Positions 55,936 to 60,469 of a stretch of 64,000 bases of DNA are shown piece by piece (the stretch's first letter is position 1; every line of letters starts with the position of its first letter). The translations under genes and the position numbers were made by a program. The stretch covers positions 372,001 to 436,000 of the forward strand of contig NZ_VOHK01000004.1 in NCBI RefSeq assembly GCF_007859325.1, written 5' to 3'. Under the pieces are notes generated by a model, which searched no databases, was not told where the DNA came from, and saw nothing but the letters and a program-made list of their open reading frames with translations. Origin of the DNA: Luteimonas marina (lineage in GTDB: Bacteria; Pseudomonadota; Gammaproteobacteria; Xanthomonadales; Xanthomonadaceae).

Positions 55936-56151
55936 TTGGCCAAGCCCAACTACGCATTCGAAAAGCGCCAGCGCGAGCTGGCGAAGAAGAAAAAGCAGGA
56001 CGAAAAGGACGCCCGCAAGCGCGAGGCCCGCAATTCGGCGCCGGTGCAGCCGCAGCCGCCCAAAGCATCCCCGACTGTCGAGGCACCCGCGACGACACCT
56101 GACGCGCCTGCCGCGCCCGTGCCCCGGATCCACCGCAGGGCCGCGTCCTAG
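55936..56151 (+). CDS. Small Lys-rich hypothetical protein with TTG start
   Basis: The 71-residue product begins MAKPNYAFEKRQRELAKKKK and is basic for 35 residues, then Pro/Ala-rich. Short proteins with this N-terminus are common in gammaproteobacteria and have no assigned role. The start is TTG at 55936 with GGAG 6 nt upstream; no ATG or GTG in frame would give the family N-terminus. It is the last gene of the small operon. Confidence 0.75.
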   Translation: MAKPNYAFEKRQRELAKKKKQDEKDARKREARNSAPVQPQPPKASPTVEAPATTPDAPAAPVPRIHRRAAS

Positions 56152-56244
56152 CGCAGCAGCGCAACCCTCTCCCGCACGGGCGCCCCCAGGCGCGACGGGA
56201 TCCGACGGGAAACCCGCATCGCGGGCAAATCCGGAAAGGCAGCC

Positions 56245-56318
56245 TGTCATTTCGACCGCAGGGAGAAATCTCCTGTCCGGCGCGAGGAAAGCAGATTTCT
56301 CCCTGCGGTCGAAATGAC
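56245..56318. repeat. Dispersed inverted repeat, family D
   Basis: TGTCATTTCGACCGCAGGGA and inverse TCCCTGCGGTCGAAATGACA, with GAAATCT/AGATTTC inner arms. Confidence 0.85.
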
Positions 56319-56362
56319 ACGGACAGGGACACGGACAGGGACACGGACAGGGACACGGACAG
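56315..56362. repeat. Four perfect copies of a 12-bp tandem repeat
   Basis: The unit GACACGGACAGG is repeated at 56315, 56327, 56339 and 56351 and then decays (GGGATGCGGCTACGGAC). It starts inside the end of the family D repeat. Confidence 0.9.
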
Positions 56363-56511
56363 GGATGCGGCTACGGACAAGGGATACGGCTGCGGACTCA
56401 GGCGACAGGAATGCGCTGAACGCTTGGGCTATCTGGTTCGCGACGACGATCCATCCCCGATCCGATCAACTGCCGCAGGGCATTCGCCGCTCGAGCCGGC
56501 AAGGAACCCAC

Positions 56512-56540
56512 AAAAAACCCCGGGCTTGCCGGGGCTTTCT
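56512..56540. terminator. Bidirectional terminator-like hairpin
   Basis: AAAAAACCCCGGGCTTGCCGGGGCTTTCT: stem CCCCGG/CCGGGG around GCTTG, with an A-run on the left that becomes a T-run on the minus strand. It would stop the rightmost minus-strand transcript of the element. Confidence 0.7.
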
Positions 56541-56809
56541 GGACCGCGAATTGGGGTAGCCTCTCTCGAAAAGTATCTGCAACTTGTTGTTTTTTCGGCA
56601 ATTATAATATTCAGGTTCTGTTTAGATACCGCAGCAACTACCGCTGGATCTCGTCGCTTGAAAACTGGATTTGAACCAAAAACCAAGCCGTCTTTTACAT
56701 GACGGTCAATCGCCACTTCGGCAAGCCAATCGACAGCATCTCGCGCATGGCTTCTCTGCCAGAGCGCGCACTACCCGGCCACTTCGAATCTGTTCGTAAG
56801 AATCAAGGC

Positions 56810-57349
56810 TCATGCCTGACGGGTTCCTCGCGAACTTGGCTTCGATTTGCTCCAGACAGCCCCGGCAAAACCATTTCTGGCAAACACTTTCAGAGGCATC
56901 CGGCCCTTATACCTCCGACCGTCGAGATCCTCGTAAGTCACCAAGATCGGAATCTGAACGCCGTAGTTCAACTGACGACTGGATTTTTCAACACCGAACG
57001 AGCCGAACGCGGTAGACAGATCCTCCCCATTCCGCAACAGGGCGACCATGCTTTCTTCCTCGAAGCACCGCGTTATTCCCTCCATCATCTGCTCCGTCGC
57101 GCCTTCTCCGTGAAGAGATGAAACCCTATCAGCGTCCGCGTGCAACCGAATGTTAACCGCAGGCCGGTTTCCAGAATTCGAGATGATCAAATTGAACGTA
57201 CTCGCCGTTCTTAGCTCTGAGTGCTCGTCGACGAACGCCGTCACAATGGGTCTGTTGCTCTGCAGCCAGAACCTGCGTGTGAAGTACAGAGATACCAGGG
57301 ACACAAACAAAGCCCCTATAGATATCGCAACCGGCAGATCAATCTGCAT
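56810..57349 (-). CDS. Membrane-anchored hypothetical protein (ICE cargo)
   Basis: The 179-residue product has one N-terminal membrane helix (about 6-26, PVAISIGALFVSLVSLYFT), then a beta-rich soluble domain with NLIISNSGNRPAVNIRLHAD and VTYEDLDGRRYKGRMPL, and a basic tail. No family is recognised. Such 'N-terminal helix plus Ig-like domain' proteins often sit in the inner membrane. GC is clearly lower than in the flanking chromosome. It is 25 bp downstream of the PD-(D/E)xK-like gene on the same strand, the last gene of the three-gene cassette. Confidence 0.7.
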   Translation of the reverse strand: MQIDLPVAISIGALFVSLVSLYFTRRFWLQSNRPIVTAFVDEHSELRTASTFNLIISNSGNRPAVNIRLHADADRVSSLHGEGATEQMMEGITRCFEEESMVALLRNGEDLSTAFGSFGVEKSSRQLNYGVQIPILVTYEDLDGRRYKGRMPLKVFARNGFAGAVWSKSKPSSRGTRQA

Positions 57350-57374
57350 ATCGACCTCTCTCGTCTAAACGTAC

Positions 57375-58280
57375 TCACCAGTCCGGGCCCATGACCGGAT
57401 ACCACGACTCAGAAACGCCGCTTTCGAACATTGAACTTCTAAGATCCTCGAACAATTTCAATTGTTCCAGATCACACTCCGGCGTTGTCCACATTGTCAT
57501 CTGGGTGCTTGAGGCGATCTCTCCAGTCAACGGGGGATGACGGATTGGCGCCGAAGACGACACAAGCACTCCGGATATCCGTCTCGATGCAATGTACTTA
57601 GCCAACCGAACATGATGGATATTAAGGAAGTCAATATTGTGGTTGTCCAAAAATGCAGCGGCGTTGGCAGGATCTTGGGCATCTACGATGCAGTACGGAG
57701 GCAACACATCGTCTATGCACACCGCCAACAGCCCTGGGGTTGCAGATTTCTCTATTTGCTTTACACCAGTAGAGAGCTGTGATTCCGCATTCTTGGCGGA
57801 GTAGATGCGTTTGCACGCCAAGGCAAGACACCCTGATTCCAAGGTTACAACTAGGTCTGGCTCGCATATTTCCGCAGGAATGCCCCTACCCCCTAGAAGA
57901 CAGAGCAATTCCAACTCCCAAAGCTTGTCTTTGGCCCTCGACGGAGATCTATCTCCCGGATCTAAAGCATCTTTCTTAAGCGTCCAAAGATGATCTTTAG
58001 CATCATCACGACCCAGTAGAACGCTGGCCGCCCTAGCGATCCTATCGAGATACTGTCCACGCAACATCGCCCGTTCAACATCCTTCTCGCTACTGACTTC
58101 GGCTAGTGGATTCTGTGCGAATCGGATCGAATCGTCGATCAATCGTGCAAGGCCAGATGTCGGATTGACTGTCACTCCCGCGTCGGAAAACTGTTCTCGC
58201 AACCTGCTCGCTGCCGCGACCGCAGCCCCGAACATGGTCGAAGACCTGAGGAGAACACTGCTTTCCTCCATGCCTGCCAT
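57375..58280 (-). CDS. PD-(D/E)xK nuclease-like protein (ICE cargo)
   Basis: The 301-residue product (305 if the GTG at 58292 is used) is soluble and unfamiliar. Its middle resembles a restriction-endonuclease fold: a helix with KLWELELLC, then EPDLVV, 12 residues, and ALACKR (numbering from the GTG: Glu126/128, Asp146, Ala159, Lys161), followed by a helix with KQIEKS. This fits E...PD...(D/E)xK except that the acidic residue before xK is Ala. The protein may use another acid or be catalytically weakened. The first 120 residues are helical; the last 100 are an alpha/beta region without motif. ATG 58280 has GAGGG 6 nt upstream; GTG 58292 overlaps the preceding stop (GTGA). Confidence 0.7.
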   Translation of the reverse strand: MAGMEESSVLLRSSTMFGAAVAAASRLREQFSDAGVTVNPTSGLARLIDDSIRFAQNPLAEVSSEKDVERAMLRGQYLDRIARAASVLLGRDDAKDHLWTLKKDALDPGDRSPSRAKDKLWELELLCLLGGRGIPAEICEPDLVVTLESGCLALACKRIYSAKNAESQLSTGVKQIEKSATPGLLAVCIDDVLPPYCIVDAQDPANAAAFLDNHNIDFLNIHHVRLAKYIASRRISGVLVSSSAPIRHPPLTGEIASSTQMTMWTTPECDLEQLKLFEDLRSSMFESGVSESWYPVMGPDW

Positions 58281-58288
58281 CGCTACCC

Positions 58289-58636
58289 TCACTCGTGCTC
58301 CGGTGTGGCGCGTCCACAGTTATAGCAGCGTCGGAAGTCGGGCAGCTGCCGTCCGTACATCCTCCGGCCCATCCTCGGGCCTCCAAGCGGGCCTTCACAG
58401 AAGCGGCACGGCTGAACACTCCCTTTTTCCCAGCGCACTAGACGCCAGAAAAAGTACGCAGCCCAGACAAGGGCGACTAGTGATCCGGCCTGAAAGATCC
58501 GCGTTCCAAACTGCGCAAAACCCTCAGTCAGCGGGGAATTCCCGGCGCGCAACAACAGCAGCGCAACTGCAAAGCTGACCAACAAGACTCCGGCTGGACG
58601 CCACAGCCCCCTGAGCAACACCATGTTCCAGTTCAT
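58289..58636 (-). CDS. Two-helix membrane protein with C-terminal zinc ribbon (ICE cargo)
   Basis: The 115-residue product has two membrane helices (about 14-31 and 48-67) and a short C-terminal domain with two Cys pairs, CRFC (77-80) and CYNC (104-107), spaced like a zinc ribbon. The order suggests a membrane sensor or a protein that presents a metal-binding head in the cytoplasm. No family is recognised. Its stop overlaps the alternative start of the nuclease-like gene, so the two are likely translated together. It begins 54 bp after the AlpA-like gene. Confidence 0.7.
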   Translation of the reverse strand: MNWNMVLLRGLWRPAGVLLVSFAVALLLLRAGNSPLTEGFAQFGTRIFQAGSLVALVWAAYFFWRLVRWEKGSVQPCRFCEGPLGGPRMGRRMYGRQLPDFRRCYNCGRATPEHE

Positions 58637-58690: not shown

Positions 58691-59020
58691 TCACGGATCG
58701 AGACTGCGATGCCTGATCGGCTGCCGCCCTGCTTCACCGGCTTCATCCAGAAGCCTCAGGATGTCTTCCACCCGCCAAGCGGTGATGCGTTGTCCCAACG
58801 AACGTACCGGCTGAGGATAGCGTCCGGATTTGACGCCGGCCCACCAAGTCGAACGCGACACCGGAATGATTGCCGGGATCGCCGGCTTTCCGTTTCGCGC
58901 GGGACAGCCGATGATCTGATGCAACCGCAGGAAGCCCGTCTCGGGGATTCGGCGCAGCACAATCACGCGGAGCCCACCTTCAGTCGGCAACATCTGACTA
59001 TGCTCCGTGTCGCGAGCCAT
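58691..59020 (-). CDS. AlpA family transcriptional regulator
   Basis: The 109-residue product contains an AlpA/excisionase-type winged-helix region: FLRLHQIIG, IPAIIPVSRSTWWAGVKSGR and the following YPQPVRSLGQR, ITAWRVEDI. Such proteins act as activators of integrase genes or as excision factors in phages and ICEs. The start ATG at 59020 overlaps the end of the DUF2274 gene by 23 nt; ATG 58993 would avoid the overlap and lose 9 non-conserved residues. It lies between the transfer genes and the cargo genes. Confidence 0.88.
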   Translation of the reverse strand: MARDTEHSQMLPTEGGLRVIVLRRIPETGFLRLHQIIGCPARNGKPAIPAIIPVSRSTWWAGVKSGRYPQPVRSLGQRITAWRVEDILRLLDEAGEAGRQPIRHRSLDP

Positions 59021-59237
59021 GCGCCGATCTCCGCTTCCGGAACTCCCGATCGCGCGCCATGAACGCTTCGAGCATGTGCGGCACCAGCGTCGGCGCATCG
59101 ACCGGCTCGCCATAGGTCTGCGCGTGCAGCGTGGCGTATTGCTCAAGATCCGCCTGCAGCGCCTTGCTGCAGTTGAAGCTGAAACGCACCGTCTCGGTCT
59201 TCGGCAGCGGGCCGAGCCGTAGCTTGTTCGCACTCAC
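58998..59237 (-). CDS. DUF2274 family protein
   Basis: The 79-residue product (KLRLGPLPKTETVRFSFNCS near the start) belongs to a small family almost always encoded directly after trbI in conjugative elements. It has a beta strand followed by helices (ALQADLEQYATLHAQTYGEP), reminiscent of a ribbon-helix-helix DNA-binding protein. GTG start at 59237 overlaps the trbI stop (GTGA). Function unknown; a role in regulating transfer genes is plausible. Confidence 0.88.
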   Translation of the reverse strand: MSANKLRLGPLPKTETVRFSFNCSKALQADLEQYATLHAQTYGEPVDAPTLVPHMLEAFMARDREFRKRRSAHGSRHGA

Positions 59238-60469
59238 GGCTCCGCTCCCACCCGCAACGCCGCGGGGCGATACGGCCGCAGCACCAGGTCGCGGCCGACG
59301 AGGACGCGCACCGGCATCCCGGCGCGAATGGTCAGCGTGGGCTGCACGTCTAGGTTGCGCCGCGTGACCTCCTGGCCGACCTGATTGATGACTTCCTGCG
59401 CGCTGTCGCGGCCGGCATACACGATGCGGTTGCCGTCACGGTTCTCCGGCGCGGCCAGCTCGGCGCCGACGCCCAGCAGCGTGGTCAGCGCGGCGCCGGC
59501 GAACAGGCGGCGCCAGTGCATGTTCACGCCGTCCTCAAGCCCGGCGTAGCCTGCGGGATCGGCGCCAACGAAGCCGTCCAGCGTCAGCGAGGACGTGTCC
59601 GGCAGGATCACGCGCTGCCAGACCACCTGCACGCGACGCTGGCCGTAGCCGACGTCGCTGTCGTAGCGCCCGAGCAGCCGCGAACCCTGCGGGATCAGGA
59701 GATGCCGCCCGGTCGCGGTGTCATACACGGGTTCGGTCACGGTCGCGATGACCTCGCCCGGCAGGTCGGAGCGGATGCCCGTCACCAGCGCCGCGGCGAT
59801 CACCGTCCCGGCCATGACCTGATAGGGCGACGCCGGCGGCTGCAACTCGCCGCGGTTGCGGGTTTCAGTGGCGGTCGTCGGCGACTGTTCGCCCTGCGGG
59901 GGCGACAAGCCAGCGAGCAACGAATCGAACTGCGACGGAGCCGAAAGCGATCCCGTCGCCGCGCCATCGACGCCGCGCGACGCACGCGCGCCACCGCCGA
60001 AGAACACCGGCGAGCGCATGGCCTCCTCCGCTTCCTTCACCTGCGCCAGTCGTTCGGCTTCGGCGGGATCTTCGCCGTAGGCGTAGCCCTGCGCCTCGCG
60101 CTCGGCGCGCAGGATCGGTGCGCCCAGGTCGCCGGGCAGCGGTTCGCCGAGTTCCGGCACGTCGGGCGGCAACGCCTCGTCCTCCTCCGGCATGGCCAGG
60201 AGCGGCGGCGGCAACTTGGTGTAGTCCTCCGGCAGCCGATCCAGCGCCTCGGTACGGGCGATCCGCTCGACGTTGTGCAGCTCGCCCGGCCCCTCCATCG
60301 CCCGCCGCTGCGACGAGTGCAGCGACCACCAGGTCGCGCCGAGTATCGCCAGCACCAGCGCGCCCGACAGCGCGACCAGCATCCGGCGGTTCAGGCGCGT
60401 GACCGGCCGCGGCGGCGCGCGCAGCGCGACGGACTCGGGCGGCAGCTTCGGGGCGGCTTGCGTTTCCAT
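59234..60469 (-). CDS. trbI: Conjugal transfer protein TrbI (VirB10-like)
   Basis: TrbI spans from the inner membrane to the outer-membrane core of the mating channel. The 411-residue product has a short cytoplasmic end, one membrane helix (about 30-48), a Pro-rich linker (PPPLLAMPEEDEALPPDVPE), and a VirB10 C-terminal domain: YQVMAGTVIAAALVTGIRSD, LLIPQGSRLLGRYDS, and IRAGMPVRVLVGRDLVL at the end. ATG at 60469, one base after the trbG stop. The end overlaps DUF2274. Confidence 0.95.
   Translation of the reverse strand: METQAAPKLPPESVALRAPPRPVTRLNRRMLVALSGALVLAILGATWWSLHSSQRRAMEGPGELHNVERIARTEALDRLPEDYTKLPPPLLAMPEEDEALPPDVPELGEPLPGDLGAPILRAEREAQGYAYGEDPAEAERLAQVKEAEEAMRSPVFFGGGARASRGVDGAATGSLSAPSQFDSLLAGLSPPQGEQSPTTATETRNRGELQPPASPYQVMAGTVIAAALVTGIRSDLPGEVIATVTEPVYDTATGRHLLIPQGSRLLGRYDSDVGYGQRRVQVVWQRVILPDTSSLTLDGFVGADPAGYAGLEDGVNMHWRRLFAGAALTTLLGVGAELAAPENRDGNRIVYAGRDSAQEVINQVGQEVTRRNLDVQPTLTIRAGMPVRVLVGRDLVLRPYRPAALRVGAEP

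Follow-up and report, generated by a model that had tools for sequence, protein, structure and literature searches.

What are three AT-richer genes doing together at the edge of a conjugative element in Luteimonas marina, and do they form one system? The genes, here called A, B and C, lie in the 64,000-nucleotide (nt) stretch of contig NZ_VOHK01000004.1 that was analysed as a whole (the window). An initial annotation had described their products as a membrane zinc-ribbon protein, a PD-(D/E)xK-like protein and a membrane-anchored, supposedly Ig-like protein, and had suggested a conserved sensor-effector trio. We propose, with about even confidence, that A-B-C is defence-type cargo of an integrative conjugative element (ICE), with B as a nuclease-fold effector and C as its membrane-anchored partner, and that B and C are re-paired between loci. 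The features on which this proposal builds are:

58289..58636, minus strand: gene A, 115 residues, a membrane protein of small size that ends in a zinc-ribbon-like CxxC...CxxC tail.
57375..58292, minus strand: gene B, 305 residues with a GTG start, a PD-(D/E)xK-like protein.
56810..57349, minus strand: gene C, 179 residues, an N-terminal membrane anchor and a soluble domain.
58289..58292, minus strand: GTGA overlap of the A stop and the B start, suggestive of translational coupling.

All three reading frames are present on the minus strand as first described, and so is their tight spacing, the GTGA overlap being followed by a gap of 25 nt between B and C. They are not chance frames, since homologues of each exist elsewhere. 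The lower GC content ascribed to them is equally apparent (60.6% in A, 52.5% in B and 53.5% in C, against 72.5% in trbI), and nearly all remaining 1-kb bins of the window lie at 65-76%. None of the three products passes the curated Pfam or NCBIfam cut-offs or has a PADLOC match at 0.001, in line with the earlier remark that none of them matched a known family. The B alignment, with its 18 members, likewise yielded no Pfam match at 0.01; a single member matched at 0.042, a chance level.

The nuclease part of the proposal depends on B. The confident structural model (predicted local distance difference test score 85, above 89 in the blocks of residues 111-190) has a helical stretch at the N-terminus (about 21-107) followed by a nuclease-type core (about 119-192), and B contains no hydrophobic segment. 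This core has the alpha-beta-beta-beta-alpha-beta arrangement of the PD-(D/E)xK superfamily, which includes restriction enzymes, archaeal Holliday-junction resolvases and Can1/Can2. B shares with these proteins the order of helices and strands, a Glu in the first helix, a PD before the second strand, a Lys that ends the third strand and a Gln in the next helix. E126, E128, D146, A159 and K161 are located where the initial annotation had put them. Among the relatives of B, Glu126, Asp146, Lys161 and also Gln179 are constant, whereas E128 varies and drops out of the motif. With a PD-(D/E)xK-type model and most of the motif in agreement, and no different fold emerging, the nuclease-fold assignment of the middle protein is supported. 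At the position of the second acid, Ala159 is found in 17 of 17 close relatives and Glu, giving a canonical ExK, in a distant relative (genome G338); the subfamily of B therefore seems, judging from the alignment, to have lost this acid. These counts exclude L026 (a broken gene of 202 residues) and take L017, which is split into two separate reading frames, by its second part only; L024 and L028 are cut at contig ends. Because loci L014-L029 were found with patterns drawn from two conserved regions (near residues 119-126 and 157-165), constancy there is partly a product of selection; the non-query rows of alignment A1, which come from tblastn and whole-genome searches, show the same motif residues. 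As a separate observation, the closest relative of B (61% identical) has upstream of it a gene for 360 residues (L011:10617-11696) with a D...FDCKTK stretch resembling the PD-(D/E)xK motif and no match in Pfam or PADLOC.

Relatives of B were detected in two samplings of the family (3 of 149 and 3 of 385 genomes) and in one of the class (3 of 369), each figure including the window's genome. Of 72,556 plasmid records, 19 carry B, and 15 of these are predicted to be conjugative; B had no match among the 50,697 phage records of the INPHARED collection. Thirteen B loci lie in genome contigs and three in viral contigs. Scans of genome and viral contigs with a single B or C sequence found nothing, and alignments were needed for detection.

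Several of these relatives are encoded inside or beside established defence operons. In L012 (genome G060), a relative 39% identical to B is the next gene, 198 nt on, after the Hachiman pair HamA and HamB, and is itself followed by a gene for 239 residues whose start forms a GTGA overlap with the B stop. B differs from the Hachiman components: the absence of a DUF1837 match rules it out as a HamA, and A-B-C has no HamB. The distant relative in L036 (genome G338; L036:717-3343) is the third of four genes in the same direction, which encode a TIR protein with a hydrophobic C-terminal end (TIR_2, 7.2e-22), a 152-residue protein, the B relative and a 199-residue protein; this set may itself be a defence operon. 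A DUF262-type restriction gene (mREase_IV, 1.5e-81) lies 232 nt upstream of the relative in L014, and two TIR proteins are encoded on the opposite strand to it in L005. Weaker or candidate-only matches were found near B in L022, L024, L025, L027 and L011. The same-strand gene tightly coupled to B varies as well: here it is A, elsewhere a 192-residue gene (L002, a 1-nt coordinate overlap), a 229-residue gene (L015, 9 nt) or a DUF2971 gene (L025, 21 nt). A single nuclease gene that moves among different defence operons has a counterpart in the HamM-type accessory nucleases, which are described as metallo-beta-lactamase-fold proenzymes with a trypsin-like partner (PMC12799240). B, whose fold is different, is not one of them, and no protease was observed as its partner.

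C, a protein with a single N-terminal hydrophobic segment (residues 1-25) that bears out the predicted membrane anchor, keeps similar company. It matches phrog_9607, of unknown function, at 7.4e-7, and a sequence search for relatives of solved structure returned nothing. Counting its own genome, C occurs in 2 of 149 genomes at family level, 2 of 299 at order level and 1 of 398 at phylum level. Relatives were also detected in two plasmid records (one weak), in three viral contigs and in one phage record, the last being the same phage as one of the viral contigs. In the phage locus L071, bSEFIR (5.5e-123) lies 40 nt upstream of the C relative. In the filamentous phage PfAC08 (L072), the C relative is convergent with IetAS (4.7e-79 and 6e-32; the name is the depositors' own), which a Pf-phage paper reports as tied to resistance by correlation (PMC11878078). 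C adjoins both systems and is a listed component of neither, having no PADLOC match. In L093 (genome G115), SMEK (3.1e-24), described as a nuclease domain of short-Argonaute partners (PMC10810196), lies 71 nt upstream of the C relative and is preceded by a TRADD-N-associated membrane protein (5.9e-14). In Cupriavidus, the second part of C is followed by candidate-defence ATPases (PDC-S06, 6.9e-68; PDC-S20, 2e-78). The defence context that had been suspected finds support in the neighbours of relatives of both B and C. In L092 (genome G1175), a C domain follows a membrane protein within one fused product, which has no PADLOC match and whose gene lies close to those of an integrase and MobA, and a second Pf-type contig with a C relative (L073) ends too near for its neighbours to be read. 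On the Cupriavidus plasmid (L069/L089), a Tn3-family insertion splits the C relative into halves about 23 kb apart.

The position of the trio fits the end of a conjugative element, as originally described. Around the three genes we found the following:

58691..59020, minus strand: AlpA-like small DNA-binding protein directly upstream of A (Pfam 0.03, below cut-off).
58998..59237, minus strand: DUF2274 gene of the trb region (1e-21).
59234..60469, minus strand: trbI (TrbI, 3.5e-60).
56688..56705, minus strand: weak terminator-like hairpin, about 105 nt 3' of C (four such hairpins were found in the region against 2.6 expected).
56031..56810, no strand: presumed chromosome/element junction interval, from the end of congeneric similarity.

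A-B-C thus sit behind trbI, the DUF2274 gene and the AlpA-like gene, in the orientation of trbI. Within about 27 kb of the trio, the same contig encodes T4SS-DNA_transf (TraG, 1.6e-96), CagE/TrbE (3.9e-10) and a DUF3363 relaxase (1.3e-131), so that trb genes, TraG and a relaxase occur together in one region, as in a trb-type (Tn4371-like) ICE. On the other side, a comparison with four congeneric stretches shows chromosomal similarity up to window position 56031 (contig 428031) and no further, so the junction should lie between there and C. A search for a pair of attachment-site repeats found none, with 14-mers and 11-mers giving chance-level matches only (one 11-mer in the T arm of a tRNA-Pro), which leaves the exact edge of the element undefined. 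Two further features were seen in this part of the genome. A dispersed repeat with short tandem units occupies window positions 56245-56322, on the chromosome side of the presumed junction, and matches several further places in the genome on both strands. A complete type IX retron gene set (L032:6552-8940; contig G000:C16 466552-468940, outside the window), which may belong to the same element as the trio, lies about 36 kb away from it; the set matches a reverse transcriptase (2.1e-127), a helix-turn-helix protein (1.9e-70) and HEPN (5e-54) and is followed by a gene for a 1341-residue NACHT-like protein.

From this material we envisage the following division of labour for defence-type cargo on a trb-type ICE. 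B would be soluble, have a PD-(D/E)xK fold and act on nucleic acid, presumably by catalysis; it is most likely a metal-dependent nuclease, with DNA a likelier target than RNA. Its partner might, on a suitable trigger, release or recruit it through the N-terminal helical part. The first 25 residues of C could tether it to the inner membrane, and its soluble domain is predicted to be cytoplasmic by the positive-inside rule, given the Arg pair right after the segment; there, C might hold or sense for whatever effector it is paired with. A, in which one clear hydrophobic segment (residues 10-36) and two CxxC pairs support the earlier description, has a possible second segment at about 51-69, below the threshold used. 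It might form a membrane hairpin with a zinc ribbon, oriented as the positive-inside rule predicts, which at this locus is coupled to B. B and C would then be modules that are re-paired between loci, not parts of one fixed system, and the genomic company that they keep suggests protection against phage or rival elements.

A number of results weigh against this proposal. The neighbourhood counts reject a fixed three-gene system: A or C was found at none of the 26 B loci outside the window, B, C or a trb gene at none of the 20 A loci (at 1e-3) and B or A at none of the six further C loci. Independent scatter was the outcome that the initial annotation had itself named as fatal to a conserved trio, and it is what we observed, A, B and C never being found together elsewhere; among the loci examined, they are together only in this window. 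The 26 B loci comprise 24 B-bearing records (L002-L029 minus duplicates and self copies) and the short loci L036 and L037, with flanks of at most 5 kb for plasmids and at most 10 kb for the others that are often limited by the contig; some records are near-identical, and of the 19 B-bearing plasmid records, 12 lie outside this set. All 20 further A places were taken with about 7 kb per side, A itself not being re-detected in two. Two weak tblastn rows, for A in L011 (E 0.64) and for C in L012 (E 0.095), do not rise above chance and are left out of these counts. Moreover, scans of a minority of the neighbours identified no defence gene at many of the B loci (Pseudomonas megaplasmids, L003, L004, L008, L019, L021 and L023), and the scanned neighbours of B and C were hand-chosen, without a baseline for how often defence genes lie nearby by chance. 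Relatives of A, found in 18 of 198 genomes of the family (own genome included) and in no plasmid record at 0.1, are mostly in ordinary chromosomal surroundings, 2 of 20 lying beside genes of the cyclic-oligonucleotide-based anti-phage signalling system (CBASS). These two have a cyclase (4.7e-110) and a 2TM effector (3.8e-54) in L050, and TRIP13 (8.6e-144) and a cyclase (1.3e-144) in L056. As for B, Foldseek against the PDB gave no match at E ≤0.001, and the top row in both fold searches was the central domain of acetyl-CoA carboxylase, a likeness that we judge to be a chance arrangement, since nucleases are indicated both by the residues of the motif and by the majority of the remaining small-domain rows. 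A sequence search for relatives of solved structure gave one match, to a coiled lectin neck (E 0.0011), neither piece of which is significant alone. Finally, the Ala in place of the ExK acid in all close relatives means that B may be catalytically weak or inactive.

The most serious alternative, which we consider rather unlikely, is that three functionally unconnected accessory genes have become neighbours at an ICE cargo site; elsewhere, B and C could each have a role in defence, and A a different one. The finding that no two of the three co-occur outside the window speaks for it, and the GC content of A, above that of B and C, points the same way. It is harder to reconcile with the GTGA overlap and the 25-nt gap, or with the equally tight coupling of B to other partners in L002, L015, L025 and L012. 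That A, B and C are partners in one system is our inference, with coupling in its favour and the missing co-occurrence against it. It is improbable, to our mind, that B is a catalytically dead PD-(D/E)xK protein serving as a DNA- or protein-binding adaptor: the uniform Ala159 would suit such a role, yet the strict retention of E126, D146, K161 and Q179 would be unexpected if the fold alone mattered, and the distant relative keeps a full ExK. Least probable of all is entry or surface exclusion or fertility control, in which A and C would block a second copy of the element and B cut or bind incoming DNA, since the place directly behind trbI in the same orientation, the two membrane proteins among three products and the predicted conjugative nature of most plasmids with B are offset by B and C relatives outside conjugation regions (in phages and chromosomal islands) and by trb genes near none of the 20 A loci and neither of the two C loci tested.

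Beyond defence-type cargo at this one locus, we tentatively suggest a broader possibility. B may found an unnamed family of PD-(D/E)xK-like effectors, its close members without the second acid, that is plugged into Hachiman, TIR and type-IV-like restriction operons and here into a membrane pair, and C may found a family of membrane-anchored partners common to bSEFIR, IetAS, SMEK and B loci, both belonging to a pool of interchangeable parts carried on ICEs, phages and plasmids. The literature search met no recognised paper on such a family, though published work may well exist, since nameless sequence families cannot be sought by words. If the suggestion is correct, the parts list of bacterial immunity would gain two uncatalogued families, one with a nuclease fold and one of membrane partners. 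The close and distant branches of B, with Ala or Glu at one position, would constitute a natural active-site experiment, and both families would offer a ready test of whether accessory modules retain their job when they are moved between systems.
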